Positions 3,193-35,705 of a stretch of 35,712 nt of DNA are shown piece by piece. The notes beneath the pieces are model-generated. The model was not told the origin of the DNA. It saw nothing but the letters and a program-made list of their open reading frames with translations, and did no database searches. The stretch's first letter is position 1, and each line of letters opens with the position of its first letter. The stretch comes from a virus. Both the position numbers and the translations under genes were made by a program. The DNA lies in the IMG/VR virus record IMGVR_UViG_3300032311_000598, positions 1-35,712 of that record, one strand, 5' to 3'.

Positions 3193-3198
3193 AAAAAA

Positions 3199-3213: not shown

Positions 3214-3232
3214 ACAAACAAAACAAAAAGTT

Positions 3233-3472: not shown

Positions 3473-3474
3473 AA

Positions 3475-6365: not shown

Positions 6366-6380
6366 TATATATAGATATAC
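6366..6380 (+). promoter_or_regulatory. Recurrent A/T intergenic motif, diverged copy
   Basis: TATATATAGATATAC stands 12 bases before the ATG at 6392 and is followed by AAAACAAAGTT, much like the leader before 3233. The core TTTATA is not intact, so this copy is weaker. Confidence 0.3.
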
Positions 6381-6391
6381 AAAACAAAGTT

Positions 6392-13271: not shown

Positions 13272-14226
13272 AAAGGTTTTAATTACGGGAGCCAATGGAT
13301 TAGTTGGTAATTACATGGTTGATAAATGTATTCAACGAGGTGCATTTGTAACTGCAGTGGATATACACACTCCAGAAAACCAATTAGAAAAATACAAAAA
13401 TAGTGATTATCAGTTTATTAAAGCAGATTTGAGAGAATTCAAAAATTGTAAAAGAGTTGTTGAAGGACAAGATGTAATTTTTCATATCGCTGGTGTAAAG
13501 GGTTCTCCAAAAAGAGCAGCAGAACAACCGGCAGATTATTTTGTACCAATGTTACAATTTAATACTAATATGATGGAAGCCGCAAGATTAGAAGATGTAG
13601 AGTGGTATGTGTATACATCAACTGTTGGAGTATATCAACCTGCTGAAGTATTTTATGAAGATGATGTATGGAAAACATTCCCATCAGAAAAAGATAAATA
13701 TGCAGGATGGGCTAAGAGATTGGGTGAATTACAAGCAGAAGTATACTCAGTATCATACGATTGGAATAAAGCATCGATTGTAAGACCTGCAAACATTTAT
13801 GGTAGACATGATAACTTTGGTCCAGAATCCACTGTCATCGCATCCCTAATTAAAAGATTATTTGGTGAAAAAGAACATCCATTAGTATGTTGGGGAGATG
13901 GTTCTCCAATTAGAGATTTTATCTATGCCGGAGATGTGGCTGATGGAATTATTCAAGCATACGAAGGTAAAATTACACAACCTATAAATTTGGGTAGTGG
14001 AACTGGGATAACAATTAAAGAACTTGCAGAAACTCTTGTAGAAATCTACGAAGATATGTATGGAGTTAAAGTTGGAATTGAATGGGACCCTGAAAAACCA
14101 AATGGTGATACAAAAAGATTGATGAGCACAGAACGTGCAGAATCACTTGGAATCAAACAAAAAATATCCTTAAAGACAGGATTAAAACATACAATTGATT
14201 ATTACTTAAACGAATACAAAAAATAA
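13261..14226 (+). CDS. NAD-dependent sugar epimerase-like SDR with shifted Tyr
   Basis: A 321-residue extended SDR protein with GANGLVG at 10-16, HIAGVKG, TSTVGVY for the active-site Ser/Thr, RPANIYGRHDNFGPES and WGDGSPIRDFIYAGDVADG. It resembles GDP-fucose synthase/epimerase-like proteins. The catalytic YxxxK is altered: Tyr147 is followed by AGWAK, so Lys152 is five residues away and Ala148 occupies the normal Tyr place. It may still work with a displaced acid/base, or act only as an isomerase or binder. It probably prepares a nucleotide sugar for the local transferases. No SD; overlaps the previous gene by 11 bases. Confidence 0.82.
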   Translation: MKGKKVLITGANGLVGNYMVDKCIQRGAFVTAVDIHTPENQLEKYKNSDYQFIKADLREFKNCKRVVEGQDVIFHIAGVKGSPKRAAEQPADYFVPMLQFNTNMMEAARLEDVEWYVYTSTVGVYQPAEVFYEDDVWKTFPSEKDKYAGWAKRLGELQAEVYSVSYDWNKASIVRPANIYGRHDNFGPESTVIASLIKRLFGEKEHPLVCWGDGSPIRDFIYAGDVADGIIQAYEGKITQPINLGSGTGITIKELAETLVEIYEDMYGVKVGIEWDPEKPNGDTKRLMSTERAESLGIKQKISLKTGLKHTIDYYLNEYKK

Positions 14227-14231
14227 AAAAT

Positions 14232-15224
14232 ATGAAAAAAACAGACAAAATTTTAGTAACTGGTGCGAGTGGATTTATTGGTTCTAGATTATTAAAAAGT
14301 TTATACGAACAAGGTTACACAAATTTACGAGCAAATGCAAATTCTAGAGAATTAAGAAATGATTTTGAAGGTTCTAAAAATGTAGAATTTGTAAAAGGGG
14401 ATTTACGCAGAAGTAGTATATGTAAAGAACTTACAAAAGGAGTTGATGTTATATTCCATTGTGCAGCAAATACATCTAATGCATTAGATACTAAATTCAA
14501 TCCACTATTACACGTTACTCCAAACATTGAAATGAATGTTAATTTAATGGAACAATCGTGGATTAATTCAGTAAAGAAATTTATCTTTATATCATCAAAC
14601 ACAACATATCCAGATATGGGCGATGTTCCTTGTACTGAAGATATGGAAATACAAACCCCATCAATTGTTCCTGTATATAAAGCAGTTGGTTGGATGAAAC
14701 GTTATTGTGAAACACTTTGTGATTTTTTTTCAAATCAAATTCATAATCCAATGCAATGTATTATTATCAGACCTTCAAATGCGTTTGGTCCAAATGATAA
14801 ATACGATTATGAAAAATGTCACGTTACCCCTGCAAATATTAGAAAAGTAGCAGATGGGTTGAATCCAATACCAGTATGGGGTGATGGAACTGAAGTTAGA
14901 GATGTTATTCACGTAGATGATATGGTTAGTGGATTTATATGTGTAGCAGAAAACGTTCATACTCATGATATCTACAATGTATCATATGGTGAGGGATATA
15001 CTGTAAACGAAGTTTTAGATACAATTAAGGATATTGAAGGTAACACTAATCCAATTGAGTATGTAAATAACAAAGCACCAATGATACCCGTTAGATTACT
15101 CGATAATACTAAATTAAAAGCATTAGGTTGGAAACCAAAATATGACTTAAGAAATGGATTAGCAGATGCCCTTAAATGGTATAAAGAAAACAAAAATCAG
15201 TTTAACGAAAATTCGCAACCATAA
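14232..15224 (+). CDS. NAD-dependent sugar epimerase-like SDR lacking the usual Tyr
   Basis: A 330-residue extended SDR protein with GASGFIGS at 11-18, FHCAANTSN, FISSNTTYPDMG as the Ser/Thr element, IIRPSNAFGPNDKYD, VWGDGTEVRDVIHVDDMV and NVSYGEGYTV. The active-site region reads AVGWMK, so Lys156 is kept but the position of the catalytic Tyr is Val152; the nearest Tyr is 149. The same GW-x-K layout occurs in the SDR gene just upstream, suggesting a shared ancestor or a related altered reaction. It probably binds a nucleotide sugar; activity is uncertain. Gap of 5 bases upstream, and TAATG overlap with the ThDP beta-like gene. Confidence 0.82.
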   Translation: MKKTDKILVTGASGFIGSRLLKSLYEQGYTNLRANANSRELRNDFEGSKNVEFVKGDLRRSSICKELTKGVDVIFHCAANTSNALDTKFNPLLHVTPNIEMNVNLMEQSWINSVKKFIFISSNTTYPDMGDVPCTEDMEIQTPSIVPVYKAVGWMKRYCETLCDFFSNQIHNPMQCIIIRPSNAFGPNDKYDYEKCHVTPANIRKVADGLNPIPVWGDGTEVRDVIHVDDMVSGFICVAENVHTHDIYNVSYGEGYTVNEVLDTIKDIEGNTNPIEYVNNKAPMIPVRLLDNTKLKALGWKPKYDLRNGLADALKWYKENKNQFNENSQP

Positions 15225-15772
15225 TGAGTACACCTCAATTTACACCATATGTTGATGCATTAACAAATGCAATGAAAACACTAATGGAAGATGATAATAC
15301 GATTCTAATTGGACAACAAATTGTTTATTATGGAAATCCAATGTCAAAAACAATTGAAGGACTACCAAAAGAAAGAATGATTGAAGTTCCGGTAATGGAA
15401 GAAACCCAAATGGGAATAAGTTTAGGATTAGCCATGGCTGGACATAAAGTAGTTTCATTTTATCCACGTTGGGATTTTGTAATATGTGCAGCAAACCAAT
15501 TAATAAATCATTTAGATAAAATTAAAAAAATGTCAAATGGTCAATGGAATCCACATATTTTAATTAGAGTAGGTAAGGGGTCTGATAAACCATTAGACCC
15601 TGGTCATCAACATAAAGGAAATTATATAGATGAATTTAAATCAATGTGTCCTAATATAGAATTTCACGATTTAAAGACTTGGCAAGATGTTGAGTTATCA
15701 TATAAATACGCAACCGAAAATATTGGTATTCATGTATTAGCAGAATACCCAGAGTTATACTATGCAAATTAA
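15224..15772 (+). CDS. Thiamine-diphosphate enzyme, E1-beta-like (PYR domain only)
   Basis: A 182-residue protein that resembles the pyrimidine-binding half of E1-beta or transketolase. It has LIGQQIVYYGNP near the N-terminus, then EVPVMEETQMGISLGLAMAG (54-73) where Glu59/60 is the likely cofactor-activating Glu, then FYPRWDFVICAANQLINH and PHILIRVGKGSDKPLDPG. The C-terminal transketolase_C domain present in most E1-beta chains (about 320 residues) is missing. It is the obvious partner of the alpha-like gene at 11491, though three genes separate them. The pair would form a minimal ThDP active site at the subunit interface. Starts in a TAATG overlap and overlaps the next gene by 11 bases. Confidence 0.8.
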   Translation: MSTPQFTPYVDALTNAMKTLMEDDNTILIGQQIVYYGNPMSKTIEGLPKERMIEVPVMEETQMGISLGLAMAGHKVVSFYPRWDFVICAANQLINHLDKIKKMSNGQWNPHILIRVGKGSDKPLDPGHQHKGNYIDEFKSMCPNIEFHDLKTWQDVELSYKYATENIGIHVLAEYPELYYAN

Positions 15773-17207
15773 TAGAGTATTTGATTTTATTGGTCCATCT
15801 GGATTTATACCAAATGGAGTAAATTATAAATACACATCTGATATGTGGGATAGTAATTTTTATATTGATAATATTTTTATTGATGAATTTAATAAAAAAT
15901 ATTTACAAATAGCAGTATACGATTGCAATCTCAATATTGGGCCATTTAATATTACTGATATTCATATTTTTGATTTAAGATATGATGAAGAATCCAATGT
16001 AGTTGGTAATTCAAATGATAATTATTTTTATACAATCACTCCATTTGGAAACGTATTAGTTGCAACAGGCCAAGACTTCACATATCATCAGAATCAGCAT
16101 GTTTTTGATTTTATATCTGAAAGGGCTAAACAATATTTAAAAGCAAAGAATTTTTATTTAATTTTTGATTATAGTAGTGAAGGTGATATAAAACCAGATA
16201 TTTTTTATAATATACACAAAGCATGTGAAACTCACAATATATGTCCATCTAAGGTAATTTTCATCACATCCGCAGTTAATACAACGGAACTATATACTGA
16301 ATATTATGTAAAAGATAAAAACCCAAAATTAAAATTAAAAACAACTTGTTATCCCTGGCCATTTTTTGCTAAAGGAAAAGAAACAGTTGATTTAATGAAG
16401 GGGAATGTTGAATTATCATTTAATGGTAATACTAATAAAAATTCAATTAGTAAAACAACGGATTATTTTAAAATAAAGAATAGAAAAAAGAAGTGTTTGA
16501 TGCTAAATAGGAGACTTAGACCACACCGATTAATCATTCTTTCGTTGTTACAAAACGATAAATTATTAGATAGTACATTATCATCATTTGATATGAAATT
16601 ATTATATACACCAGATGCCGGATTAGATTTGGTAAGTGGTGGCGGATATGATGATAAACCATATTTGACAGATTATCAAACTCGTGTAAAAATGAGTACC
16701 GGTTTTCACGGATTAACTAAAATAAAAAAACAAGTAGTTGATTACGATGATATTGAATCGGTATGGGGGTTTGCGTTTGAAACCAAACAACCTTATGAAG
16801 ATACTTATTTTAGTATTGTGCCAGAAACTCTTTTTTATGAAGCAGGAAACTACATATCTGAAAAAACTTTAAAACCAATAGCACATTTACATCCGTTTGT
16901 TCTGGTGGGTAGACCACATATTTTAAAAAAATTGAAAAAATTAGGATTCAAAACTTTTTCTGATTTTTGGGATGAAAGTTATGATGAAATTGAAAATAAT
17001 AGTGATAGAATTATAGCTGTATATGATGTCATAAAAAAATTAATTTTATTATCAAACGAAGAATGGGATGTTATGATTACAAAAATGGCATATATATTAG
17101 AACATAATCGAACCCATTTAATGAAATTTAATGATAAATTAGTTCCAGATACTTATGTAAAGAATTTAAATAAAATAATTAACGGAGAATCCGTAGATTT
17201 ACTTTAA
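15762..17207 (+). CDS. FWDESYD-family protein, copy 3 (putative glycosyltransferase)
   Basis: A 481-residue family member. Its N-terminus (RVFDFIGPSGFIPNGVNYKY) parallels copy 1. Later parts are KKCLMLNRRLRPHRLIIL with LLDS, YFSIVPETLFYEAGNYISEK, TLKPIAHLHPFVLVG and GFKTFSDFWDESYD at 395-408. The central Glu followed by the Y-I-S-E-K string is the best match in the window to a GT10-like donor element, but the family is not assigned. A 42-base block coding for the FWDESYD motif is nearly identical in all three copies. It is the last large gene of the glycan block. The start overlaps the ThDP beta-like gene. Confidence 0.7.
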   Translation: MQINRVFDFIGPSGFIPNGVNYKYTSDMWDSNFYIDNIFIDEFNKKYLQIAVYDCNLNIGPFNITDIHIFDLRYDEESNVVGNSNDNYFYTITPFGNVLVATGQDFTYHQNQHVFDFISERAKQYLKAKNFYLIFDYSSEGDIKPDIFYNIHKACETHNICPSKVIFITSAVNTTELYTEYYVKDKNPKLKLKTTCYPWPFFAKGKETVDLMKGNVELSFNGNTNKNSISKTTDYFKIKNRKKKCLMLNRRLRPHRLIILSLLQNDKLLDSTLSSFDMKLLYTPDAGLDLVSGGGYDDKPYLTDYQTRVKMSTGFHGLTKIKKQVVDYDDIESVWGFAFETKQPYEDTYFSIVPETLFYEAGNYISEKTLKPIAHLHPFVLVGRPHILKKLKKLGFKTFSDFWDESYDEIENNSDRIIAVYDVIKKLILLSNEEWDVMITKMAYILEHNRTHLMKFNDKLVPDTYVKNLNKIINGESVDLL

Positions 17208-17392: not shown

Positions 17393-20300
17393 ATGAATGA
17401 ACTGAGTCAATATCTTGTCAATCAACTTTTATTAGAGGAAACCGAATTACACAATTTTGTTGTAGTATATTCGGGTAGATTCCAACCTTTTCACAAAGGC
17501 CACTACGCAACTTATCAAAATCTATGTAAGAAATTTGGTAAGGATAAAGTGTTTATTGGTACATCTAATAAAACCGATACTCAAAAATCCCCATTTAATT
17601 TTAAGGAAAAGAAAATAATCATGACTAAAATGTTTGGTATTCCATCAAACAAAATAGTTGAGATTAAGAATCCTTATGCACCTACTGAAATTTTAAAACA
17701 ATTTGATGAAAAAACAACTGGATATATAAGTGTTGTTGGTGAAAAGGATGAGATGAGATTGGGTGGAAAGTATTTTGAAAAATACAAAGGTAAAATAGAA
17801 CAAGGATATAAAGACAAAGGTTATGTATACGTTTCACCATCACAATCAAACCCAATATCAGGTACTAATGTACGAAATTGGTTAAGTAAAGGAGATGAAG
17901 AACAAAGGAAAGCAGGATTTTTAAAAGCATATCCAAAGTTTGATGAAAAAATATTTAAATTAATTACACTTAAATTGGATAAATTGAGTGAATCTATAAA
18001 GGAAGAAATTAAATTAGATGTTGAAATAGGTGACACTATTCTAATGGGTAAATTTAAAAATAAAAAAACAGTAGTTAAATCAATTGGCAAAGATGAACAC
18101 GGAATGCCAACTATTAATGGTAAAAAAGTAGCAACGTTTAGAATCCTACCAAAACAAAATATTTTTAAAGAAGCAGCATCTACTGCAGGTGGGGAAGATT
18201 CACAACCAGATGGTGGATACCTACCAAAAGGTAAGGCAAGAGTGTTGGGTGGAGATGATGGTGTTAATAGTAGTGATGAGTGGTTTGTTAGAGGTGGATA
18301 CACTCAAACTGATTTTCCTAAAGCAGATGCAATATATGCTGCGGATGATGAAAACCAATTAACATTTAAAATCAAATCAAAAAATAACGCTAGAAGTTTA
18401 AATAAACCAACTACATACCCATTTGCATTTGATGATATTGATGTTACTCAAAATATTGAAAAAATTGAAAAGGTAGAAAAAAGATTGAAAAAGAAAGTAA
18501 AACAAAAAGATTCCATTTCAGAATTAATATCAGATTATTCTGATTTATTAGATTCATTACTTGAAAGTGGTGGAGAAGATGATAAATACGTGCACGTTGG
18601 GTATGGTAAATACAAAGAAAAAAGTAAAAAAGATGTAGAGGGTGCACCATTATTTAAAAAAGATGATAGTGGAAAATATAGTCCTATTGGGGGAGATGAT
18701 AAGGGTGGTGAAGCTAAACCAACTGGTCAAGCAATACAAGGTGCTGATATGTTTAAACATGATAAAAGTGTTAAACAACAATCTGCTAAACCTAAGACGG
18801 ATTGGAGAAGTGGAAAAGATGGTTGGGAAATATTAGATGATGATAGAGCAAAAGTAAAAAATATTAGAGATTATACTGATGAAGAATATCAAGGTGAAAC
18901 TGGTGAATATTTTGAAAATGATGTAACCAAAAACGTTGCACCAAATGCTTTTAAAGATGAAGCAGATATGATTCAAAAAATGAAAGCAGCAAAACCAATT
19001 TATTTATCATCCGAAGAGATGCAGAATATGGGTAATACCGATGTAGGTGAAATTCTTTCTGCAAGTGAAGAAGGTGGTTCTAATGCAATGAAAGCAAGAG
19101 GTAAAGAACTTGCTGATGAATATGGTAAAGATTGGAATAGATTAGAACAAGGTATTCAAAAAGGTAATAACGTGCCATCGCCTATTGCATTAAGAGATAA
19201 AAATGGTAATTTACATTTAGTTGCTGGAAATACTCGTTTAATGTCATTTACTGCATATGGTAAAAAATTACCTGTAAAAGTAATTGATTATGATGGTGAA
19301 TTTAACTATGATAAGGAAGAAACACCACAAGATACTTCAAAGGTGGATGTAAATAAAAATGCACCAATGGCTCTTCAAAAAATTAAAGATGGAGTAAAGA
19401 ATTGGAGTGTACAAGAAAAAGAATTTTTTACAAAAAAAGTGCATAAAGGTAACTCACCGGAACGAAGAAGTTTCGCAGAAGCGTTTAAACATAAAGCTAA
19501 AGGTGCATTAGAAGCAATTAAACATGGTGCCGAACACGAAGTTCATTTGTTTAAAGAGGCTGGAAGTGGTGTTAAAAACTTTTTTAGTGGTAAGGAGGTA
19601 TCGAAAGAAGAAAAGAAAGCCCTAATTGGAGTTGCTAAAAAAGTGGCATTAGCAACAGCATTCGGTGCAGCTGGTGGTGGATTGGCACATGGAGCTGTTG
19701 CTTTTGGTAAACATGTAATGATGGAATTTATTCCTCATGTAGTTGTTGAAACCATTGCAGTAGGTGCAGGTAAAGCAGCATTATTTGCAGGTGAGGAAGA
19801 ACCAGATACAGATATGTTAAAATTCATAGCTATTATAACTAAAAAATTAGAAAGTGCAAAAATACCAAATGAAGTAATGGCTTCTGCAATAGAATCGTTT
19901 AATTCTAATAAAGATGAAAAGGGTGATATTAAAGAAGATTATTACTATGATGGAACAGTTGATAATTATGCAGATTGGGCAAGAACACATAAAAGAAAAT
20001 ATGATAGTGAAAAAACTAATTTCAAAGTAAAAGATTCAGGCCAAGATGATTTAGAAGAAATAGCCGTACAAGTTGATGATATACCTAATGAACCATTAAC
20101 CGAAGTAAAAAAAGAAAGTGTTGTAAATTACTACAAAGCAATTTGTAAAGATTTAAAAATAAAACCTATCCAAGTTAAATTTGGCTCAGTCGGTCATGCG
20201 GGTGCAGCAACTACATATGATACCAAATCATTTATACCAGAATATATTACCTTTGATTTGAGTAAGGTTACCGATATAGAAAGAGCAATATTACACGAAA

Positions 20301-22006
20301 TAACACATCAGATACTTTTGTTAAAACAACAAAATCCATTTCACAATTGTAATAAGAGTGCTGGATTTAAAAAAGTAGAAAATAAATTAATAGATAAATA
20401 TTTTTATTCATCACAAAGTTCAATATTAAGAGAAAGAGTTAAAGTTGAAATGGCAAAAACTGATATGGATTCAGTTGAAAAATATGCCGATTCACAAATG
20501 AGTCCAACTGATGTTGATTTAGGAAGGGAAACTGACCATTTCTTTCAAAGGTTAAATGACCCGAGAAATGGTAAAGAAATATCACCTGCAGAATTAACTG
20601 GGTTATTCAAACGATTGGCTAGAAACAAAAAGAAATTTTTAGAATTTTTAAAACAATATAAAGAGTTTGTAGTTAAAGATAGAGTATCAAATATTAATAT
20701 TGCATTTATTAAAGTTGCGGATAGATTGATTGCTAAGACTATAATGAGAAAAGCTGATTTTAAATCATCTACTCCTGTATTCACAACGGAATCACTAATA
20801 ATGGAAGGTGGTGCATATGGACATATGAATCATCCATTTGATACTGAAATAAATTTAACATTTGGTCAACTTAAAGATATTGTTAATCGTGCATTAGATG
20901 GTAATTTAGAATTTGCTAGAGAGAAAACAGATGGTCAAGCCTTGGCTATAAGTTGGATAGATGGTAGATTAGTAGCAGCAAGAAACAAATCACATTTGAA
21001 AAACAAAGGTGCTGGTGCATTAGATATTAATGGGGTAGCAGACAAGTTTGCAGGTAGAGGTGAATTAACTGATGCCTACAATTTCGCTATGAAAGACCTA
21101 TCTAATGCTATAAAATCATTATCACAAGCACAAAAAGATAAAGTATTTAAGAATGGTTCATGTTTTATGAACATAGAGGTGATATACCCTACCTCAGTCA
21201 ACGTTATTCCTTACGGTCAACCACTATTAGTATTTCACGGAACAATGGAGTACGATGAGAATGGTGATGCAATAGGAGAATCAGCAGAAGCAGGTAGAAT
21301 ATTGGGTGGAATGCTTAAACAAGTAAACGCCGATGTTCAATCAAAGTATACACTACAAGGACCACCGGTATTAAAATTACCAAAATCACAAAACCTATCA
21401 TCTAAAAAAGGTAAATATCTTGCTATGATATCTAAATTACAAAAAGAATTTGGATTGGGAGATACTGCAGGTGTTGCTGATTACCATCAAGCATGGTGGG
21501 AGAACTTTGTAGATAAAAAATCACCAACTACATTAGATAACGGCACCAAAATGGGGTTAGTTAAGAGATGGGCGTTTGGTGAAAGGGGATTCCGTATTGA
21601 TAAGAATTCAATTAAGGATGAAAAAACTCTTGCATGGGCTACTAAGATAGATAAAGAAGACCATAAGGGTATTTCAAAAGATAACTTAATGAAATTCGAA
21701 GATATTTTCTTAGGAGTTGGTGCAGATGTATTGGAATTCACAGCATCAGTCCTAACAGTTAATCCAGATTCTGCTTTAAGGGATATGAAGAAAAGATTAG
21801 AACAAACTATAAAGGATGTTCAAGCAAGTGGAGACCCTAAGAAGATAGAAAAACTAAAATTAGAACTTAAAAGATTAAATGCAATCGGTGGTGCTAAAAG
21901 AATCGTACCAATCGAAGGAATTGTATTTGTATATAACGGACAAACATTCAAATTAACAGGAGCATTCGCTTCCCTAAACCAATTATTGGGTATTTTTTAC
22001 GCATAA
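17393..22006 (+). CDS. Giant multi-domain protein: nucleotidyltransferase, ParB-like, metallopeptidase and ligase-like parts
   Basis: A 1537-residue fusion. Residues about 20-195 are an HxGH-type nucleotidyltransferase (GRFQPFHKGHY with HKGH at 34-37; ISGTNVR at 155-161), as in NadM/cytidylyltransferases. A Gly/Lys-rich stretch with VHVGYGKYKEK follows. A ParB-like element VAGNTRL lies near 610-616. Residues about 740-800 are Gly/Ala-rich and hydrophobic. A zinc-peptidase motif HEITH is at 968-972 (SprT-like). The last 400 residues resemble a polynucleotide ligase/nucleotidyltransferase fold: EKTDGQ with Lys1178, IEVIYP, IEGIVF with Glu1508, and FKLTG with Lys1520. Possible prohead-protease sites (SIKE204, FKE260, LIME1138 before GG) lie between modules. 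It may be packaged in the head and processed. No SD. Confidence 0.8.
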   Translation: MNELSQYLVNQLLLEETELHNFVVVYSGRFQPFHKGHYATYQNLCKKFGKDKVFIGTSNKTDTQKSPFNFKEKKIIMTKMFGIPSNKIVEIKNPYAPTEILKQFDEKTTGYISVVGEKDEMRLGGKYFEKYKGKIEQGYKDKGYVYVSPSQSNPISGTNVRNWLSKGDEEQRKAGFLKAYPKFDEKIFKLITLKLDKLSESIKEEIKLDVEIGDTILMGKFKNKKTVVKSIGKDEHGMPTINGKKVATFRILPKQNIFKEAASTAGGEDSQPDGGYLPKGKARVLGGDDGVNSSDEWFVRGGYTQTDFPKADAIYAADDENQLTFKIKSKNNARSLNKPTTYPFAFDDIDVTQNIEKIEKVEKRLKKKVKQKDSISELISDYSDLLDSLLESGGEDDKYVHVGYGKYKEKSKKDVEGAPLFKKDDSGKYSPIGGDDKGGEAKPTGQAIQGADMFKHDKSVKQQSAKPKTDWRSGKDGWEILDDDRAKVKNIRDYTDEEYQGETGEYFENDVTKNVAPNAFKDEADMIQKMKAAKPIYLSSEEMQNMGNTDVGEILSASEEGGSNAMKARGKELADEYGKDWNRLEQGIQKGNNVPSPIALRDKNGNLHLVAGNTRLMSFTAYGKKLPVKVIDYDGEFNYDKEETPQDTSKVDVNKNAPMALQKIKDGVKNWSVQEKEFFTKKVHKGNSPERRSFAEAFKHKAKGALEAIKHGAEHEVHLFKEAGSGVKNFFSGKEVSKEEKKALIGVAKKVALATAFGAAGGGLAHGAVAFGKHVMMEFIPHVVVETIAVGAGKAALFAGEEEPDTDMLKFIAIITKKLESAKIPNEVMASAIESFNSNKDEKGDIKEDYYYDGTVDNYADWARTHKRKYDSEKTNFKVKDSGQDDLEEIAVQVDDIPNEPLTEVKKESVVNYYKAICKDLKIKPIQVKFGSVGHAGAATTYDTKSFIPEYITFDLSKVTDIERAILHEITHQILLLKQQNPFHNCNKSAGFKKVENKLIDKYFYSSQSSILRERVKVEMAKTDMDSVEKYADSQMSPTDVDLGRETDHFFQRLNDPRNGKEISPAELTGLFKRLARNKKKFLEFLKQYKEFVVKDRVSNINIAFIKVADRLIAKTIMRKADFKSSTPVFTTESLIMEGGAYGHMNHPFDTEINLTFGQLKDIVNRALDGNLEFAREKTDGQALAISWIDGRLVAARNKSHLKNKGAGALDINGVADKFAGRGELTDAYNFAMKDLSNAIKSLSQAQKDKVFKNGSCFMNIEVIYPTSVNVIPYGQPLLVFHGTMEYDENGDAIGESAEAGRILGGMLKQVNADVQSKYTLQGPPVLKLPKSQNLSSKKGKYLAMISKLQKEFGLGDTAGVADYHQAWWENFVDKKSPTTLDNGTKMGLVKRWAFGERGFRIDKNSIKDEKTLAWATKIDKEDHKGISKDNLMKFEDIFLGVGADVLEFTASVLTVNPDSALRDMKKRLEQTIKDVQASGDPKKIEKLKLELKRLNAIGGAKRIVPIEGIVFVYNGQTFKLTGAFASLNQLLGIFYA

Positions 22007-26186: not shown

Positions 26187-27056
26187 ATGAAAAAAATTAA
26201 ACATTCGAAATTTAAAAATACTGGGTTTTTATTCGAACTCTTAACTCGTCAAATCACGTTGGAGATTTTAAATAATGCTCCAGTTGAAAAGGCTAAAAAA
26301 ATAGTACAAGAATTTTTTGGTGGTAAAACCGAATTAGCAAAGGAATTACGTTTATTCAATTTACTTACAACTGAAAAATATAATTCAGAAAGTAAAGCAG
26401 AAAAATTTATTGATGCTATTATCGAAACTCGTACTAAATTAGATGAAACTAAATTATTAAGAGAAAAGTATAATTTAGTAAAGGCTATTAAAGAAAATTT
26501 CGATATTGAAGAATTCGTTGCATCTCCTGTTGCTAATTATAGAGTATTGGCATCGGTTCATAAGATTTTTGAAGCAAAGATTCAAGATGTAACAAATGTT
26601 AAAGATGTGTTTGATGCTAAGATTACATTAGTAGAACATGTATCTACAAATACAGCATCTATTAAGAAGATTGAAGATAAATTAATGGAAACATACAAAA
26701 CTCAAGAAAAAGATTTGAGATTGTTGACATATAAAATCCTAGTTGAAACATTTAATACCAAATATACTAACTTAAACGATGACCAAAAGGGTCTTTTAAG
26801 AGAATTTATTAATAATGTTAATAATACATCTAAATTTGGTGAATACTACGATACACAATTAAAGAAAGTAGTAACAGAACTTCATAAATTACATTCCGAA
26901 GTTAATGATAAAATCACAAAAATTAAATTAAAAGAAACTATCAATGTTTTAAAAACACAAAAGATAGGAAAGAAAATTACAGATGAACAAGTTTCAGCTT
27001 TGATGATATCATACGAATTAATAAAGGAAATAACCAATGTCAGAAAAAAATATTAA
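26187..27056 (+). CDS. Uncharacterised head-cluster protein, helical
   Basis: A 289-residue, largely helical, Lys/Glu-rich protein opening with MKKIKHSKFKNTGFLFELLT. No enzyme motif, Cys pair or membrane segment is visible. The pattern KNTG-FLFELL-RQIT and later KYNLVKAIKEN, followed by coiled-coil-like heptads (about 200-289), looks like a conserved protein that I associate with the portal-protease interval of marine T4-like phages, but I cannot name it. A role in the prohead core or in portal/scaffold assembly is inferred from position only. It has an AAGGA site 10 bases before the ATG and overlaps the next gene by 20 bases. Confidence 0.75.
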   Translation: MKKIKHSKFKNTGFLFELLTRQITLEILNNAPVEKAKKIVQEFFGGKTELAKELRLFNLLTTEKYNSESKAEKFIDAIIETRTKLDETKLLREKYNLVKAIKENFDIEEFVASPVANYRVLASVHKIFEAKIQDVTNVKDVFDAKITLVEHVSTNTASIKKIEDKLMETYKTQEKDLRLLTYKILVETFNTKYTNLNDDQKGLLREFINNVNNTSKFGEYYDTQLKKVVTELHKLHSEVNDKITKIKLKETINVLKTQKIGKKITDEQVSALMISYELIKEITNVRKKY

Positions 27057-28545
27057 ATCTTTTATAGAAGAACTTATTGACGAAGTTGAAAAAGAGTTAG
27101 AAGAAGCCAATGTGACAGGTAATGTCGATGGTTATGATACTCCTTTTGCTTTTTCTGATAAAAATTCTGATAAAAAAAGAAAAAAAACTGCAACACAATT
27201 TGGATACACATTAGTAAATAATGATATTAACAATATTGATGAATCTATAAACGAAGATACTAAACGTGTAAACATATTAGGTATAGATTTCAATATAAGT
27301 GAAATGAATGGAAGAATATTCTTTTCTTTTATAGATAAAAAAGCAGCAAGTCTTAAAATTAGAGAAATTGGAACTAATAAAATAGTAAATCTTATACAAA
27401 AAAGTTTAGATAATGCATATGGTAAAGGTGAGTTTTTCTTTAAAGGTGGAGACCATGCAGAATTTCAAAATGGATATTTATTTCAAAGAAATGCAACTAA
27501 CATAAAACTTAATAAACTTAAATTTGAATCAGTAAACGAAGCATCATTACAAAAAGGTAAAACTTATGGTGGAAGTAAATGTGAAGGCGGATGTTTTATT
27601 GGTAAACAAGGTTTAATGAAAATAATTAAAATATCTAAGGAATCTCCTAAAGATGTTTTTATGTTTAGAGATGATAACTACTCTGGATTACAACCGCATT
27701 TTATTAAAGATGGTGTAATTGCTAAAGCAACAGTTATTAATCCGGCTTATGATTTGGAAAAACATAAAGTAAGTAATTTAAAAATAGGTAACGATGTAAT
27801 TCTTTCAGTAAGATTATTTGTATCAACAAACGAATCCGTAAATGAAGGATTAAAACACCTTATCCACGTAGAAACTCCAAAAGAAATTGTATCAAAGGAT
27901 GTCGCAAAACAAATTACGGCATTAGCTAAAAAAGGTGTTCGTTCATATGAGATTGGACTGAATATGGGATTTGTGGGTAACCAAAAAGCTGCAGTGGATT
28001 CATTTCAAAAAGTAAAAAATAAAATATATTTTGATTTAGATACAAGAGAGGGTGTTAATGAATCATTAGACCCTAAAGCACAAAAATTCTTAGATGCTAT
28101 TCAAGTTAATGATAGAAGTATAAAAGATTTAAAGAATATTACGGTCGATGCAACCCCACAAGGTAATTGGTCAGTTTATTATAAAGGTAAACGTATGTTT
28201 ACTCTTAATGGTAAGATGTTGGATGATAAAACTATTATGAAATATGGTTTAGAGCATATGGATGAGAGTTTATCAGAGGGAAAGAAAATTCAAAGACCAG
28301 TAAATCGTTGGTTAGAATTGAAAAATGATGAATCAATGCATGCTAATAAAAAGTTAGCAACTGGTTTGAGAGAATTAAAATATCAATTAAAAGAAGTTGA
28401 AACATTTTTCCGTTGGTATAATCAAATTAAGACTATGAATGAATTAAGTTCCGATGGATTTTGGAAAAGAACGCACGGACATATTTATAAGATAAAGGAA
28501 CGATTAATCAACATAGCGAAAACAATACAGGAGATAGAAAAATAA
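27037..28545 (+). CDS. Modular head-cluster polyprotein with ES(V/I)NE repeats
   Basis: A 502-residue protein made of dissimilar modules separated by a repeated short peptide: ESINE (69-73), ESVNE (164-168), ESVNE (266-270), GVNE (339-342) and ESLSE (410-414), each followed by D, A, G, S or G. Modules about 70-100 residues long between them have different compositions: an N-terminal helix with NVTGNVDGYDTPFAF; a beta-rich unit; a Cys-containing unit (SKCEGGCFIG); a helical unit; a unit with GNWSVYYKG; and a C-terminal helical unit. The repeats fit T4 gp21-type cleavage (hydrophobic-x-Glu), so the prohead protease gene 0.6 kb downstream may cut it. A clear SD (AAAGGA 27023-27028) precedes the ATG. 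Confidence 0.78.
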   Translation: MSEKNIKSFIEELIDEVEKELEEANVTGNVDGYDTPFAFSDKNSDKKRKKTATQFGYTLVNNDINNIDESINEDTKRVNILGIDFNISEMNGRIFFSFIDKKAASLKIREIGTNKIVNLIQKSLDNAYGKGEFFFKGGDHAEFQNGYLFQRNATNIKLNKLKFESVNEASLQKGKTYGGSKCEGGCFIGKQGLMKIIKISKESPKDVFMFRDDNYSGLQPHFIKDGVIAKATVINPAYDLEKHKVSNLKIGNDVILSVRLFVSTNESVNEGLKHLIHVETPKEIVSKDVAKQITALAKKGVRSYEIGLNMGFVGNQKAAVDSFQKVKNKIYFDLDTREGVNESLDPKAQKFLDAIQVNDRSIKDLKNITVDATPQGNWSVYYKGKRMFTLNGKMLDDKTIMKYGLEHMDESLSEGKKIQRPVNRWLELKNDESMHANKKLATGLRELKYQLKEVETFFRWYNQIKTMNELSSDGFWKRTHGHIYKIKERLINIAKTIQEIEK

Positions 28546-29018
28546 TGAAAATATCACGTACAAGATTAAAAGAAATCATCAAAGGGGTAATGACTGAAGA
28601 AAGTGAATATCAAGCATTCTTTCAAACCGCATTAGATAAGGCTGGAAAATCAATTCCATCCATGTCCGATGAGGAAAAGAAAGCATTCTTTGATAAAATT
28701 GATGCAGCATGGAATGGTAAGGGTGAAAAGAATGAAGAATTAGTTGGTGGTCAAAAGAAATTAGATGTTGATAAGGATGGTGATATTGGAGCAGATGATT
28801 TAGCAGATTTAAGAGCTGGTAAAAAAACAAATGAATCAATAAATGAAGATGAAATTAATTGGAGTGCAACAGAAAACGCAATCATTAATTTTTTAAAAAT
28901 GAATACGAAGATTTTAGATAAAAGAGTTAAAGATAGAGATGTAAATGGCGTTAAAGGTGGGTTACAATCAATCATTGATGGTTTAACAAACGCACAACGT
29001 AGTTTAAAATTAAAATAA
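28545..29018 (+). CDS. Head-cluster protein with EF-hand-like loop and ESINE site
   Basis: A 157-residue protein. The N-terminus MKISRTRLKEIIKGVMTEE is a basic amphipathic helix ending in a V-M-T-E string that could be a capsid-targeting peptide removed by the prohead protease. It is followed by KKAFFDKIDAAWNGKGEKNE. Residues 74-85 (DVDKDGDIGADD) have the spacing of an EF-hand calcium loop. TNESINED at 96-102 contains another candidate cleavage site, after which a separate helical tail begins. The preceding gene ends one base into this one, and AGGAG (28529-28533) lies 11 bases before the start. No enzymatic motif. Probably a small packaged or core protein. Confidence 0.75.
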   Translation: MKISRTRLKEIIKGVMTEESEYQAFFQTALDKAGKSIPSMSDEEKKAFFDKIDAAWNGKGEKNEELVGGQKKLDVDKDGDIGADDLADLRAGKKTNESINEDEINWSATENAIINFLKMNTKILDKRVKDRDVNGVKGGLQSIIDGLTNAQRSLKLK

Positions 29019-29194
29019 TGACACGAAAAAGATTGTTAGATATCATTAACGAAGAGATAACCAAAGTAAAATGGGGTATCGTCAAAGAAGAAATCACAAA
29101 TGAGGATGAAAAACTTATTCGTGATATTATTCGTAGAGAAGTATCTGCAATATTTTTTGACCTCTTTAAAAAGAGAAAAACTTGGGGAGCATAA
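29018..29194 (+). CDS. Small head-cluster protein (58 residues)
   Basis: ATG 29018 to TAA 29194 codes for 58 residues. It starts MTRKRLLDIINEEITKVKWG and ends with IRDIIRREVSAIFFDLFKKR, two amphipathic helices with strong basic/aromatic faces. It overlaps both neighbours by one base (TAATG at each end), so its reading frame is boxed in and very likely translated by re-initiation; no SD is seen. The LLDIINEE segment has the hydrophobic-x-Glu form of a T4-type capsid-targeting or cleavage sequence. It occupies the place of T4 genes 67/68 between portal and protease; function in the prohead core is a guess from position. Confidence 0.7.
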   Translation: MTRKRLLDIINEEITKVKWGIVKEEITNEDEKLIRDIIRREVSAIFFDLFKKRKTWGA

Positions 29195-29793
29195 TGAAAA
29201 ATTTATTAATAGAAACAACATTATTTGAAGGAAAATTGAATGAAGATTCAAGTGGTAGAACCTTAGTTAAAGGTATTCTTCAAAGAGCGGTTGCAGAAAA
29301 CCAAAATGGTCGTATATACCCTAAAGAAATCTTAATGCGTGAAGCAAAGAAATACGAAGTTCTTATTAAAGAAAGACGTGCATTAGGGGAATTAGACCAT
29401 CCAGATTCTGGTATTATCAATTTAAAGAACGTTTCACATAACGTCAAAGAAATTCATTGGGAAGGTGATGACCTTTGTGGGACAGTAGAAATTCTACCAA
29501 CTCCATCAGGTAACATCTTAAAAGAATTATTAAGAGCAGGTATCCTTTTGGGTATTTCCTCTCGTGGTATGGGTTCGGTAGTTAATATTGGTGAAGGTAA
29601 AGTTAAAGTGGGTGATGATTTTGAACTGATTGGTTGGGATTTTGTTTCTAACCCATCTACACATGGTGCATTTATGACACCGGTTACGATGAACGAATCA
29701 GTAAATAGACAATTAAAAGAACAAGCTATAGTTTGTGGTGAGTATTGTAAGGCACAAGACCTTATGAGAGAAATCATTACTGAATTAGCATAA
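29194..29793 (+). CDS. gp21: Prohead protease (gp21-like serine protease)
   Basis: A 199-residue protease that would cut scaffold, capsid and core proteins during head maturation. The herpesvirus-assemblin-like pattern is present: GRTLVKGILQRAV, NGRIYP, RALGELDHP with probable catalytic His69, then LLGISSRGMGS with Ser122/123 as nucleophile candidates, and GWDFVSNPSTHGAF. Length is close to T4 gp21. An upstream in-frame ATG at 29182 is possible, but 29194 forms a TAATG overlap with the preceding stop and has a GGGGAG site 4 bases away. Near its C-terminus is NESVNRQ (167-173), a variant of the repeated cleavage-like peptide, perhaps an autoprocessing site. Confidence 0.93.
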   Translation: MKNLLIETTLFEGKLNEDSSGRTLVKGILQRAVAENQNGRIYPKEILMREAKKYEVLIKERRALGELDHPDSGIINLKNVSHNVKEIHWEGDDLCGTVEILPTPSGNILKELLRAGILLGISSRGMGSVVNIGEGKVKVGDDFELIGWDFVSNPSTHGAFMTPVTMNESVNRQLKEQAIVCGEYCKAQDLMREIITELA

Positions 29794-30263: not shown

Positions 30264-31283
30264 ATGATTAAATTAAATAATTTACTTAACGAAGAAACGT
30301 TTACTGCTACTAATAAGAAGACCGGTAAAACATCGGTGTTCAAATCAAAGGATAGTAGAGATTCTGCAATCAAAGCAGGAACTCACTCAAAAGCAGATGA
30401 TAAAGGGGGAGATACTTCTAAAAAGACATCTACACCAACCACAAATATATTTAATACTCCTGCAGCAGAACCTAAGAAGGATGAACCAACATCAGAACCT
30501 AAAAAGAAAAGACCAGGTAATCCACAGGTAAATAAAGCCACAAAATCAAAAGCTGAAGAGTTAGGAGTTACTCCACAAAAGCTGGGTAACAAAGAATATC
30601 CTTTAAGAATGCTTCAAGCAGCATATGAGGCATTAACCGATTCCAATTACCATAGTGAAGCTAGAGAATTAATTGCTAAAATTGAAGGTAAACCGGAAAT
30701 GGCTGAAAAACCAGAGTATCCATCGATGCGTGACCCTAATTATGAAGAAAAGATGAAAGCAATTAGTCAAAAATATGCATCTAAGTATTCGGATGATGTA
30801 GATGATAATGCTAGAGAATTAGGAATTGCAGCTTCACAAGAAGCAGGTTGGGGTGGAGTAGAAGCAGCAGATGCAATTGCATTTACATTAAGAATGAATG
30901 GTTTCCATAAAGAAGCAGATTTAATTCAATCAGTATTTGATAATAAACCATATATGAAGAATGAAGGTAGAATTTCTTTAACTAAAATGGTTTTAGAAAT
31001 ATCATCAATAGATGGCCTTAATGATATATTAAATGGTCAATCATCCCAAATAGAAGGTATAAAGATATCAAAAGGTATGGCGGAACATATCATTTATTGG
31101 ATGAGAACATCTCCGTATGGTAAAAAATATAATTCGTGGGTTAAAAAGAATAGTATATCTACAATATTACCAATTGCTTTCAATTGGGGGTTGGATAGAG
31201 GATTGTCATCTGAATTAAAAAGTGAATTTACTGCACTAAAAGCAAAATATGGTAAAGCAGTTAAAAAAGAAAATACAAAATAG
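30264..31283 (+). CDS. Head-cluster protein with targeting-like N-terminus and Pro/Thr/Lys linker
   Basis: A 339-residue protein. It begins MIKLNNLLNEETF, where LLNE before E resembles a capsid-targeting peptide ending in a gp21-type site. Next is KKTGKTSVFKSKDSRDSA, a small basic unit I have seen repeatedly in large phage head proteins (memory, not checked). Residues 45-95 are a low-complexity Thr/Pro/Lys/Glu linker (TSKKTSTPTT, EPKKKRPG). The C-terminal 230 residues are a globular helical domain (YPLRMLQAAYEALTD ... NGFHKEADLIQSVFDNK). No catalytic motif seen. AGGA at 30250-30253 serves as a weak SD. Confidence 0.72.
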   Translation: MIKLNNLLNEETFTATNKKTGKTSVFKSKDSRDSAIKAGTHSKADDKGGDTSKKTSTPTTNIFNTPAAEPKKDEPTSEPKKKRPGNPQVNKATKSKAEELGVTPQKLGNKEYPLRMLQAAYEALTDSNYHSEARELIAKIEGKPEMAEKPEYPSMRDPNYEEKMKAISQKYASKYSDDVDDNARELGIAASQEAGWGGVEAADAIAFTLRMNGFHKEADLIQSVFDNKPYMKNEGRISLTKMVLEISSIDGLNDILNGQSSQIEGIKISKGMAEHIIYWMRTSPYGKKYNSWVKKNSISTILPIAFNWGLDRGLSSELKSEFTALKAKYGKAVKKENTK

Positions 31284-31293
31284 GAGATAATAA

Positions 31294-32367
31294 ATGATAC
31301 GTTTATCAAAGATAGTTAAAGAAGGTGAAGAACCAAAAAGATTTTCTAACGAAGTAAAAAAACATTTCTTAGAAATCGTTTCTACATACAACAAGTATCA
31401 AGAAATGATGGATAGAAAATCAGACATTACTGAGATAGCAGAAACTTTGGGTGGTATTACCGATGCAGCTAGAGAATTGGCGGTAAACGAAGCAGATGAT
31501 TGGTTTGATGCACATACTGTTAAACGTAATATGAATGAATTAACCAAATTAGGTAAATCATTTGACCAAGTTGCAATAGAAGCAAAGAACTTAGACCAAA
31601 GATTACATGGATTATACGAAGATATGGGTCATATCCTATCTCGTTACTATAAAATTGGTGAAATTACTGAAGACCAAATGAAAGAACGTTTGGGATTGAG
31701 AGAAGATGGTAAATTACAAGGTGGGGAGAAAGACCCATGTTGGAAAGGATATGAGATGATAGGAATGAAACCAGGTAAAGGTGGTTCTCAAGTTCCTAAT
31801 TGTGTTCCAAAGAATGAATCAGTAAACGAAGCATTAGGTAATGATAAAGCAATGTTGGCATTGGTAGATATGTTATCTAACTCAATGGAACATTACGCTA
31901 GTGCAAATGAATTTGTAAACGTTACTTCTAAAATACCTGGTTTTGCTAATAACAAAGCGGAATTAAGAGATGTATTTACAAAATATTATAAAGTAGGTGC
32001 AAGAGAAAGAAACGATTGGCATACTAAAGATTGGTTAAAGTGGTTAAAACAATGGCCATTAGAGGAATCTAAAACCAATTGTGTTGAATGTGGTAAAGTA
32101 AAAGAAGCAGCATATGGATATAAAGATTCAACTGCATCATATATTGATAAACATAAAGAAGAATTCAAAGCAGTAGAAAAAATGAATAAAGGAAACGAGC
32201 AATCGTTCTATGATTCATTATCTGCGTTAGAAGAAAAATTAGGACATCCTAAGTATATGATATTCTTATCAAATGCGTTAAGAGGATATAAAGTAGATAT
32301 GTATAAAGACCCAAAGATTAAAAATCAACAAGAAGCTGAAGAAGCATTGTTCCTTTTAAGCAAATAA
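31294..32367 (+). CDS. Modular head-cluster protein with ESVNE site and Cys-containing mini-module
   Basis: A 357-residue protein starting MIRLSKIVKEGEE, again a short basic helix ending in V-K-E before G. Helical unit 1 contains LAVNEADDWFDAHTVKRNM. A 35-residue Cys mini-module follows (DPCWKGYEMIGMKPG, then VPNC), then NESVNEA with the candidate cleavage bond after Glu179. Two more parts follow: a helical unit to about 260 and a C-terminal unit that begins after NCVECGKVKEAAYG (another K-E-A site). The layout resembles the gene at 27037. It has a good SD (AGGAG 31282-31286). Likely a packaged or core polyprotein; no enzyme motif found. Confidence 0.75.
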   Translation: MIRLSKIVKEGEEPKRFSNEVKKHFLEIVSTYNKYQEMMDRKSDITEIAETLGGITDAARELAVNEADDWFDAHTVKRNMNELTKLGKSFDQVAIEAKNLDQRLHGLYEDMGHILSRYYKIGEITEDQMKERLGLREDGKLQGGEKDPCWKGYEMIGMKPGKGGSQVPNCVPKNESVNEALGNDKAMLALVDMLSNSMEHYASANEFVNVTSKIPGFANNKAELRDVFTKYYKVGARERNDWHTKDWLKWLKQWPLEESKTNCVECGKVKEAAYGYKDSTASYIDKHKEEFKAVEKMNKGNEQSFYDSLSALEEKLGHPKYMIFLSNALRGYKVDMYKDPKIKNQQEAEEALFLLSK

Positions 32368-34076: not shown

Positions 34077-35705
34077 ATGGCAAATTTTAATTTATCTAAA
34101 CTTATGGAAGGCAAGAACCCACAAGCGGTAATGTTGGCTGAAACACGTCAATTGAAAAGCAAATGGGAAGCAACTGGTCTTTTAGAAGGTTTAAAAGAAA
34201 GAGAGCAATCTCAAATCGCAGTTCTATTAGAGAACCAAGCGAAACAATTATTGGATGAAGCTACCGCAACTGGTACTTCAGCAGGTTCTGAAGAATGGTC
34301 TGGCGTAGCTTTACCATTAGTAAGAAGAATCTTTGGTGAAATTGCAGCGAAAGAATTCGTTTCAGTTCAACCAATGAACTTACCTTCAGGTCTTATATTC
34401 TATCTAGATTTCAAATATGGTACTGCACAACCAGGTAATCCAGCATTCTCTGGAAAATCTTTATTCGGTGGTAATGGTACTTCAACATTTGATGCTGATT
34501 TCGGTAGAACTAAGGCAGCAAACAATGGTCTTTATGGTGAAGGACGTTTCGGATATACAATCAACGAAGTTCCTGCAACTGTAGCATCTGCAGCAGTAAT
34601 CAGTACTGGTTCAGTACTTTCTGCAGATGGATGGAAAGAAGTTGGATTCGATGCAGCTTTATCTGCATCAGTAGCAGCAGGTACTTTAAGAAAAGTTGTA
34701 TTCCCTAAATCACAATTGACTAGACCAGATTTAGATGGCGTACGTTCATTCTATTTCTCATCTTCAGCATTCTCTGCTGCTGATGCGTTCTACCCTCAAT
34801 TTACTAAAGTTGATGGTGATAATATCGTATTTTACGCAAAATACACAGCTGGTGCTCACGCTCCAATTTCTGTAAAGTATTCATACGCTCCAACTTCAAA
34901 CACTCGTGGTGATTTCGAAGATGGTAACCCAACTGAACCAGCAACTGATTTAGGTATTCCAGAAGTTGACTTAGAATTACGTTCTGAGGCAATCGTTGCT
35001 AAGACTCGTAAGTTGAAAGCAGTATGGACACCGGAATTGGCACAAGATTTGAATGCATATCACTCAATCGATGCTGAAGCTGAATTAACTTCTATGTTAT
35101 CTGAATATATCTCTTTAGAGATTGACTTAGAAATCTTAGATATGTTAAAATCAAATGCTTTGACAGTTGATTACTGGTCTGCTTCAATCGGTGAAGAGTA
35201 CAATGCAGCAACAGGTGCATGGTCAGCAGGTAACAATTCATTGGCATACCAAAAAAATACATGGTTCCAAACATTAGGTGTTAAATTGAACAAAGTTTCT
35301 AACAAGATTCACCAATTAACATTACGTGGTGGTGCTAACTTTATCGTTGCATCTCCAGATGTTTGTACTATCTTAGAATCAATTCCTGGATTTACAGTTT
35401 CTGCAGATAAAGATGCTACATCTTTCGCAGCTGGTGTATCTCAAGTAGGTTCATTGGCATCTCGTTACACAGTTTACAAGAACCCTTATATGACTTCTAA
35501 CGAAATCTTATTAGGATTCAAAGGAAGTAACTTCCTTGAGACTGGTGCGGTTTATGCTCCATATGTACCATTGATTATGACTCCATTAGTGTACGACCCA
35601 ACTAACTTCACGCCAAGACGTGGTGTTATGACTCGTTACGCTAAGAAAATGGTACGTCCAGAATTCTATGGTAAAATTTATGTTAAAGATTTGGCTTCAA
35701 TCTAA
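34077..35705 (+). CDS. gp23: Major capsid protein (gp23-like)
   Basis: A 542-residue HK97-fold capsid protein. The best T4 gp23 matches are LVRRIFGEIAAKEFVSVQPM, LPSGLIFYLDFKYG, then KTRKLKAVWTPELAQDLNAY, HSIDAEAELTSMLSEYISLE, NFIVASPDVCTILESIPGF and YAPYVPLIMTPLVYDP. The N-terminal 61 residues form a helical delta-type peptide ending in LLDE before ATATG; cleavage after Glu61 would match T4 gp23 processing after an L/I-x-E site. The codons use more C-ending triplets than the glycan genes, as expected for very high expression. Start fixed by the AAAGGAG site. It forms the hexamers of the head shell. Confidence 0.96.
   Translation: MANFNLSKLMEGKNPQAVMLAETRQLKSKWEATGLLEGLKEREQSQIAVLLENQAKQLLDEATATGTSAGSEEWSGVALPLVRRIFGEIAAKEFVSVQPMNLPSGLIFYLDFKYGTAQPGNPAFSGKSLFGGNGTSTFDADFGRTKAANNGLYGEGRFGYTINEVPATVASAAVISTGSVLSADGWKEVGFDAALSASVAAGTLRKVVFPKSQLTRPDLDGVRSFYFSSSAFSAADAFYPQFTKVDGDNIVFYAKYTAGAHAPISVKYSYAPTSNTRGDFEDGNPTEPATDLGIPEVDLELRSEAIVAKTRKLKAVWTPELAQDLNAYHSIDAEAELTSMLSEYISLEIDLEILDMLKSNALTVDYWSASIGEEYNAATGAWSAGNNSLAYQKNTWFQTLGVKLNKVSNKIHQLTLRGGANFIVASPDVCTILESIPGFTVSADKDATSFAAGVSQVGSLASRYTVYKNPYMTSNEILLGFKGSNFLETGAVYAPYVPLIMTPLVYDPTNFTPRRGVMTRYAKKMVRPEFYGKIYVKDLASI

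Follow-up and report, generated by a model that had tools for sequence, protein, structure and literature searches.

A head-cluster protein of a T4-like virus divided into exchangeable cassettes by predicted prohead-protease sites

Why would a gene in a phage head cluster encode a chain in which a short glutamate-ending peptide returns five times, each time between segments of unlike composition? The question is raised by a 502-residue protein, P0001, encoded in the 35,712-nucleotide record IMGVR_UViG_3300032311_000598 of an uncultivated virus, the whole of which is called the window here. The right half of this 35.7-kb window is a T4-type head cluster, in which the P0001 gene lies between the genes for a T4-type portal and a Peptidase_S77 prohead protease. 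We consider P0001, with a probability of about 0.8, to be a polyprotein of T4-style internal proteins whose cassettes are exchangeable and which the gp21-type protease cuts. Its features are given below, with an arrow marking each predicted cut.

27037..28545, + strand: P0001, 502-residue cassette-bearing carrier, predicted internal-head polyprotein (translation, motif scan)
27037..27240, + strand: constant N-terminal carrier module F3, common to relatives with differing cassettes
27241..27255, + strand: linker 1, ESINE↓D, residues 69–73 (motif scan; low-confidence gap in the structure model)
27256..27525, + strand: cassette F18 (family census; also in locus L066 behind other cassettes)
27526..27540, + strand: linker 2, ESVNE↓A, residues 164–168, carrying the commonest linker DNA, GAATCAGTAAACGAA (motif scan)
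27541..27831, + strand: cassette F1, largest family in the census
27832..27846, + strand: linker 3, ESVNE↓G, residues 266–270 (motif scan)
27847..28047, + strand: cassette F8 (family census)
28048..28062, + strand: linker 4, EGVNE↓S, residues 338–342 (motif scan)
28063..28263, + strand: cassette F7 (family census; in locus L094 directly behind MIKLKDLLNE)
28264..28278, + strand: linker 5, ESLSE↓G, residues 410–414 (motif scan)
28279..28542, + strand: constant C-terminal carrier module F2, predicted helical (census, structure model)

Translation and a motif scan place the five linker peptides at the residues where the first-pass annotation had read them, and the similar peptides it reported elsewhere are also present: ESINE at residues 97–101 of the protein starting at 28545, ESVNE at 175–179 of the protein starting at 31294, and NESVNR in the protease. 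Among the 31 window proteins scanned, ES[VIL]NE is held only by P0001 and the first two of these. Chance or composition as the source of the P0001 motifs is ruled out by 1000 shuffles: ES[VILM]NE occurs three times against about 0.00 expected, a count that 0 of 1000 shuffles reach, and [VIL]xE[AGS] occurs six times against 1.40 (p = 0.003). Further hydrophobic-x-Glu sites of P0001 are IDE↓S (67–70), MDE↓S (408–411) and LEE↓A (21–24), the last within F3, which comprises a helix (residues 3–26), the LEE↓ANVTG site (cut after Glu23) and a TGNVDGYDTP segment.

Related phages contain shuffled modules with the same linker, a prediction of the first-pass annotation that is strongly borne out. Scanning viral contigs with P0001 gave 75 loci, and many of the matches stop at linkers. 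The P0001 residues missing are about 169–265 in L006, about 74–163 and 271–337 in L015, and about 166–342 in L012; the cassette at 164–270 recurs in other proteins, and one set of cassettes is found in two orders, F3 F10 F11 F17 F2 and F3 F11 F10 F17 F2. Cassettes have been lost, put in a new order and transferred between several carrier genes, and the shared blocks tend to begin or end at a linker. Among 300 distinct proteins gathered by similarity in the first set, E[SGA][VIL][NST]E occurs 211 times, compared with 2.5 in shuffles. Alignment A4 was used, its rows L006, L012 and L014 being possibly off around F18, and so was A7 after the misaligned row L061 had been dropped; A1, A2, A3, A5 and A6 were set aside for misaligned fragment rows. 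The proteins with the full linker system come, in this dataset, from metagenome contigs only; chimeric assembly could mimic single rearrangements, but hardly so many.

The coincidence of homology breaks with the linker was measured on proteins recruited by similarity alone, with the motif left unused, in ungapped alignments between 271 representatives. At identities of at least 90%, 654 of 952 ends of homology fall within 6 residues of [VIL]xE (random mean 209.9, maximum 241) and 292 within the same distance of the strict linker (random 52.1); at 70% or more the counts are 1886 of 3538 against 743.5, and 808 of 3538 against 170.1. The controls at 90% or more are near or below random, with 127 against 135.5 for [VIL]xD, 45 against 71.3 for [VIL]xQ and 210 against 301.4 for [VIL]xK. 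[KRNQ]xE is raised (342 of 952 against 190.9), an excess that is expected because this pattern overlaps VNE. Gapped alignments had been used earlier and were replaced, since they over-ran the borders and diluted the signal; among the 20 patterns compared with them, [VIL]xE nevertheless ranked first at 2.31 times random, with [VIL]xC (9 against 4) and [VIL]xF (130 against 77) also raised.

Cutting 171 linker-bearing proteins at their linkers yields 484 segments in 152 families, 68 of which have at least two members; the window's own copy (L076) is excluded from these counts. At least two left contexts are found for 43 of the 68 families, at least two right contexts for 45, and both for 31, protein ends and leaders counting as contexts. 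The 27 members of F1 show 12 contexts on the left and 9 on the right, protein ends and short pieces without assignment being counted too, and the 171 proteins display 130 distinct architectures. P0001 and its relatives are thus modular, their homology breaks coincide with linkers, and their modules move between carriers.

The same cassettes also occur as proteins of their own. Seven families are found both behind an internal linker and directly behind a ten-residue N-terminal leader resembling MIKLKDLLNE (an eighth on the list was an artefact of a loose pattern), and the cassette starts at the same place in the two settings, as in MIKLKDLLNE↓GLYHVGYNKGRG and ESVSE↓GLYHVGYNKGRG, or MIKLKDLLNE↓VKFKSPDYIISTTP and ESVNE↓AKFKSPDYIISTTP. 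F4 behaves likewise in addition to the seven (MISLVRLITE↓AKSDYEVYH and KESVTE↓AKSD). Cutting after the glutamate would therefore give equivalent products from either source. Fourteen families were queried, half with an N-terminal copy (7) and half without (7). P0001 itself has no T4-type ten-residue leader and begins MSEKNIKSFIEELIDEVEKELEE↓A; the leader is present on proteins bearing the same cassettes in related phages (the seven families and F4). The pattern M[IKV]xLxx(phi)(phi)xE, where phi denotes a hydrophobic residue, opens 121 of the 1585 distinct N-termini, where shuffles give 0.6, and a looser one opens 495, where they give 252.6, rates that are not genome-wide because the loci were partly recruited through leader-bearing proteins. 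The leader of T4 IPIII has hydrophobic or aromatic residues at positions 4, 7 and 8 and Glu at 10, and the leader described here is hydrophobic at 4, 7 and 8 with Glu at 10. The first ten residues of IPIII suffice for targeting, in which residues 4 and 7 are important, while processing depends on 8 and 10 (PMC9026906). Runs of small genes in L151 (4439–8848) and L048 (5533–11959), where no portal or protease was noticed, include several with the same capsid-targeting-like leader and may possibly be a second store of packaged proteins.

Carriers range from empty to full. A scan with the protease gave the best 80 of 436 related places. Across loci with a protease, 74 distinct proteins match at least one of the two carrier ends, and a contig end truncates some of these proteins. 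Among 71 complete carriers, selected because both ends fit a pattern, the strict linker is absent from 42, present once in eight, two, three and four times in five each, and five times in six; length runs from 143–241 residues without a strict linker to 457–521 with five, and correlates with linker number at r = 0.965. The short carriers keep a hydrophobic-x-Glu at the seam (INE↓AKVKRPVNRW, ISE↓AKQKRPVNRW) and LDE↓ATTTGN near the N-terminus. A 178-residue protein of phage record Mel-JY01 (L078, 10461–10994), directly before the protease, starts with the N-terminal module (36% identical) and has no linker; its C-terminal half resembles F2 by eye only, BLAST having found no match. One short carrier matched just phrog_24593 (unknown function), weakly (E 0.0052).

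The DNA of the linker is itself conserved. The 159 distinct linker contexts use 56 different 15-mers, one of which, GAATCAGTAAACGAA, accounts for 42. The valine codon is GTA in 103 of 119 cases, compared with 44% in the same proteins overall, and the asparagine codon is AAC in 74 of 127, compared with 31%. Across 130 distinct junction types, essentially all of the conservation lies in the 15 bases and the G that follows, about 16 bp. In L012 the two sides of a lost cassette meet within the linker, at GA[AG]TCATTA, and the hydrophobic-x-Glu site was destroyed in the process, so joining is not always clean. (A comparison of F7–F2 DNA, 0.606, was spoiled by an unaligned indel and is not used.) These DNA features suggest that exchange would proceed by short homology at the linker. 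They would also be expected if the peptide were only a DNA-level recombination joint, or a neutral linker between domains of an uncut head protein: the DNA is more uniform than the codons need, its conservation ends after about 16 bp, and the L012 loss cost the site. The residues retained, however, are those that a gp21-type protease reads (hydrophobic P3 and Glu P1); break enrichment at [VIL]xE is far above that at [VIL]xD, [VIL]xQ, [VIL]xK and [KRNQ]xE; carriers without a strict linker keep INE↓A, LEE↓G and VAE↓N borders; the same cassettes stand behind ten-residue leaders ending in hydrophobic-x-Glu; and the 15-mers are of 56 kinds. We regard a joint that is never cut as very doubtful, and the protein-level pattern suggests that the site is kept as a peptide as well.

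That the hydrophobic-x-Glu form fits cleavage of the gp21 type, as proposed in the first pass, agrees with the published rule that gp21 cuts after L/I-X-E (PMC9026906) and with the gp23 site here and in relatives. The major capsid protein gp23 of the window has LLDE↓ATATG just before the part aligning to mature T4 gp23*. Aligned over 43 gp23 matches, the expected maturation cut site has nine variants, eight of them with a hydrophobic-x-Glu in register; the ninth, YREAKKHLMETTQTTEVDG, has LME out of register. The site is VSE↓A in the cultured Flavobacterium phage Immuto and ISE↓A in Mel-JY01. A tblastn search of 50,697 phage records found an F4 relative (41.5%) in four records of the cultured Methylophilales phage Melnitz (Kyanoviridae), where it sits between MDE↓A and ISE↓E and is adjoined by genes starting MQGFKTFLSE↓A and MKKFSEIIE↓A; no match to P0001, F1 or F2 was found in these records, and one scan of bacterial and archaeal genomes, made with the F4 sequence only, found no relative. 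Two further observations concern Immuto: a scaffold-like protein (L077, 11725–12966) holds a module (GFEQWLDSVSAQMDKFGKNN...) that is duplicated in tandem, with VNE↓G, LEE↓G and LAE↓A as borders, and an 841-residue protein (L077, 105–2627) has ESVNE at 483 and ESLNE at 528.

The predicted products are mostly basic. Between two linkers there are 110 predicted products of 35–200 residues, or 64 after removal of near-duplicates, with a median length of 78.5 residues and a median isoelectric point (pI) of 9.33; 78% of the 64 exceed pI 8.5, compared with 39% of 913 other open reading frames, which may include non-genes (Mann–Whitney p 5.5e-14). This comparison is fairer than an earlier one (94% above 8.5 against 1 of 21 window proteins), which left off the acidic linker and had a small control. 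The mature parts of 117 leader-borne proteins have a median pI of 9.14, with 64% above 8.5. The P0001 pieces F18, F1, F8 and F2 are basic (pI 9.1–9.9, in a run that cut the first two pieces one residue late). In the P0001 structure model, whose mean predicted local distance difference test score (pLDDT) is 58.2, values below 50 occur at residues 1–7, 20–74, 129–134, 136–169, 262–272, 336–341 and 409–434; all five linkers fall in these stretches, the last residue of the fourth lying just outside. In a second modelled protein (mean pLDDT 53.1), a confident F4 domain begins right after ESITE and the rest is mostly poor. The models are supportive of, not decisive for, borders at the linkers.

Searches for known families returned little. 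P0001 has no match in Pfam or PHROGs profile searches, and none of ten cassettes scored above a curated cut-off in Pfam. Ten PHROG queries (nine cassettes and the short carrier mentioned above) matched only for the carrier, weakly, and for F19, a recurring segment GLWANIRAKRARGEKP (L022, L064, L106) that matches four PHROGs, all of unknown function. Foldseek with both models gave nothing at E of 0.001 or less. Three candidate likenesses are not relied on: two sub-cut-off Pfam matches of F8 (E 0.019 and 0.089), a helix-turn-helix likeness of F8 seen by eye only and without support, and VIA-align matches of the F4 region to cystatin-, PAS- and NTF2-like chains (Z at most 5.0), which are not read as a family.

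Does cutting imply that the pieces stay in the head? In T4, genes 67 and 68 lie between the portal and prohead-protease genes, the position of the P0001 gene here, and P0001 could be a core protein of the gp67/gp68 kind, cut only for its fragments to exit, with the cassettes as expendable filler. T4 gp22, gp67 and gp68 are cut at multiple gp21 sites in one chain (PMC9026906), as P0001 would be at its several predicted ones, and their fragments mostly exit (PMC9026906, PMC5694885); that carriers without a strict linker exist also fits. P0001 differs in having exchangeable, domain-sized cassettes and no Pfam or PHROG match. Filler, moreover, would not need conserved, domain-sized, mostly basic cassettes maintained across carriers and as leader-borne proteins, and we think this explanation unlikely.

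A closer parallel to the proposed polyprotein is offered by T4 IPI, IPII, IPIII and Alt, head proteins behind short N-terminal propeptides that gp21 cuts after L/I-X-E (PMC9026906). The T4 internal proteins are small, basic and divergent between phages (PMC9026906); the cassettes described here are mostly basic and have siblings that bear such leaders. Whereas each T4 internal protein has one gene and an N-terminal cut, several would be fused in P0001, with internal sites and a unit of exchange smaller than a gene. Each cassette of P0001 has hydrophobic-x-Glu linkers at its borders, ESVNE being the typical form. We infer that the constant N- and C-terminal parts would bring the chain into the prohead core, where the gp21-type protease would cut behind the Glu of every linker and also close to the N-terminus, at LEE↓A. 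The chain would yield a number of small proteins, most of them basic, that would remain with the DNA and, like the T4 internal proteins, probably enter the host with it and act early in infection. The linker is also the place where cassettes join, get lost and swap in evolution; as both cut site and exchange point, one short sequence would serve processing as well as the joining of cassettes. We give about even odds to a wider proposal: that the linker is a dual code, a prohead-protease site in the protein and a 15–16 bp joint in the DNA that trades sub-gene cassettes among carriers and single leader-borne genes, by which phages would keep a re-assorted payload of small injected proteins, like an integron array inside head polyproteins.

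Several observations weigh against the polyprotein reading. Another 1187 open reading frames contain E[SGA][VIL][NST]E 81 times, often as a fixed EGLNE in one family of 271-residue neighbours, and at identities of at least 70%, 1652 of 3538 breaks lie away from [VIL]xE. The site is loose at P1' (A 36, G 16, E 12, D 8 and others in 99 contexts), and P3 is mostly Val, whereas the T4 rule has Leu or Ile (PMC9026906). The F7 piece of P0001 is not basic (pI 6.5). Both structure models are weak (mean pLDDT as above), shallow alignments at the borders could lower confidence there, and F1 scores about 59–82 in one model and almost wholly below 50 in the other. No cassette tested has a known family or fold. 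Release would not by itself imply retention, since in T4 most core-protein fragments exit the head (PMC9026906).

What the cassettes might do is suggested by T4, whose internal proteins are packaged, injected with the DNA and able to counter first-response host defences (PMC3012670, PMC9391042). In an extension of the polyprotein reading, not an alternative to it, the cassettes may be proteins injected in varying combinations to take over the host or to counter its defences, with the set changing as the phages change hosts. In favour, T4 IPI inhibits a restriction enzyme and T4 requires IPIII on strain ECOR17 (PMC3012670, PMC9391042), cassette arrangements are highly variable, and Pfam assigns no family to any of the ten cassettes scanned; against this, the cassettes scanned in Pfam and PHROGs show no recognisable defence or effector domain, an anti-phage defence library not having been searched. 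The balance on this extension seems to us to be equal.

Much of the background is known, namely capsid targeting sequences, gp21 cleavage, core proteins cut at multiple sites, and domain mosaicism in polyvalent proteins. The last are multidomain proteins for which packaging, processing and injection have been proposed (Iyer et al. 2017, PMC5512222); theirs are known effector domains, some with an embedded metallopeptidase, whereas the cassettes tested here have no known family and the cutter would be a separate prohead protease. Pfam found neither of these hallmarks, effector domain or embedded metallopeptidase, in P0001 and ten cassettes. In phiKZ and SPN3US many head proteins are processed by a gp21-type protease behind a short Glu-ending motif, and some propeptides hold several sites (PMC10052503, PMC5694885). 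In SPN3US all identified cuts except self-cleavage of the protease give N-terminal propeptides (PMC10052503), and the accessible parts of these papers describe no row of exchangeable products. Those of a paper on cyanophage genomes (PMC3037559) hold nothing that bears on the cassette question. A full-text literature search, with most subscription-journal papers and bioRxiv preprints outside its scope, did not find a description of internal proteins lined up as exchangeable units of a single head polyprotein, with prohead-protease sites at their borders that double as exchange joints.

The surrounding cluster runs from the large terminase through the portal (Portal_T4), a 289-residue protein, P0001, a 157-residue protein and the prohead protease to proteins of 146, 339, 357 and 100 residues, an acidic scaffold-like protein (by eye) and gp23. 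Profiles identify gp20, gp21 and gp23 in the T4-like order (Portal_T4 2.6e-68, Peptidase_S77 8.8e-27, Gp23 5.7e-76). Further features are as follows.

28545..29018, + strand: second carrier, 157 residues, one linker ESINE↓D at 28833–28847, residues 97–101 (motif scan)
29182..29793, + strand: prohead core serine protease, gp21 type (Pfam Peptidase_S77 8.8e-27; phrog_207 1e-48)
30264..31283, + strand: 339-residue protein with capsid-targeting-like leader MIKLNNLLNE (translation; leader pattern test)
31294..32367, + strand: third carrier, 357 residues, leader MIRLSKIVKE↓G, one linker ESVNE↓A at 31816–31830
34077..35705, + strand: major capsid protein gp23, LDE↓A at residues 59–62, 34251–34262 (Pfam Gp23 5.7e-76)

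The protease reading frame is listed from a TTG at 29182, and the ATG start given earlier, 29194, lies in frame within it. Relatives of the second carrier hold extra cassettes (F5 F20 F6; F5 F6 F53), and those of the third hold F1, F8 and F32. CWxGYxxxGxKxxxGxxVPNCVP is a recurring short segment in the part of the third carrier that matches three other proteins. The nearest phage records to gp23 are an uncultured 484-kb phage and Mel-JY01 (both 54.4%), followed by Immuto (51.8%). Upstream of the head cluster, at 331–17207, there is a run of sugar-related genes; the nine proteins scanned in this stretch include three NAD-dependent epimerases, two group-7 galactosyltransferase-like proteins that bear Laminin_G_3 domains, a protein with a transketolase pyrimidine domain, and a methyltransferase. 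A 1537-residue protein (17393–22006) has an N-terminal cytidylyltransferase-like domain (Pfam CTP_transf_like 1.1e-07); Mel-JY01 has a 639-residue protein annotated as cytidylyltransferase-like, and Melnitz a 650-residue protein with a similar start (by eye).

Cultured relatives exist in Immuto and, for one cassette, in Melnitz. If the polyprotein reading is true, one motif and one leader would make a searchable signature for payload proteins, many of unknown function, across a large T4-like phage group represented mostly by metagenomes, in which a single gene would load the head with several proteins that can be swapped piece by piece.

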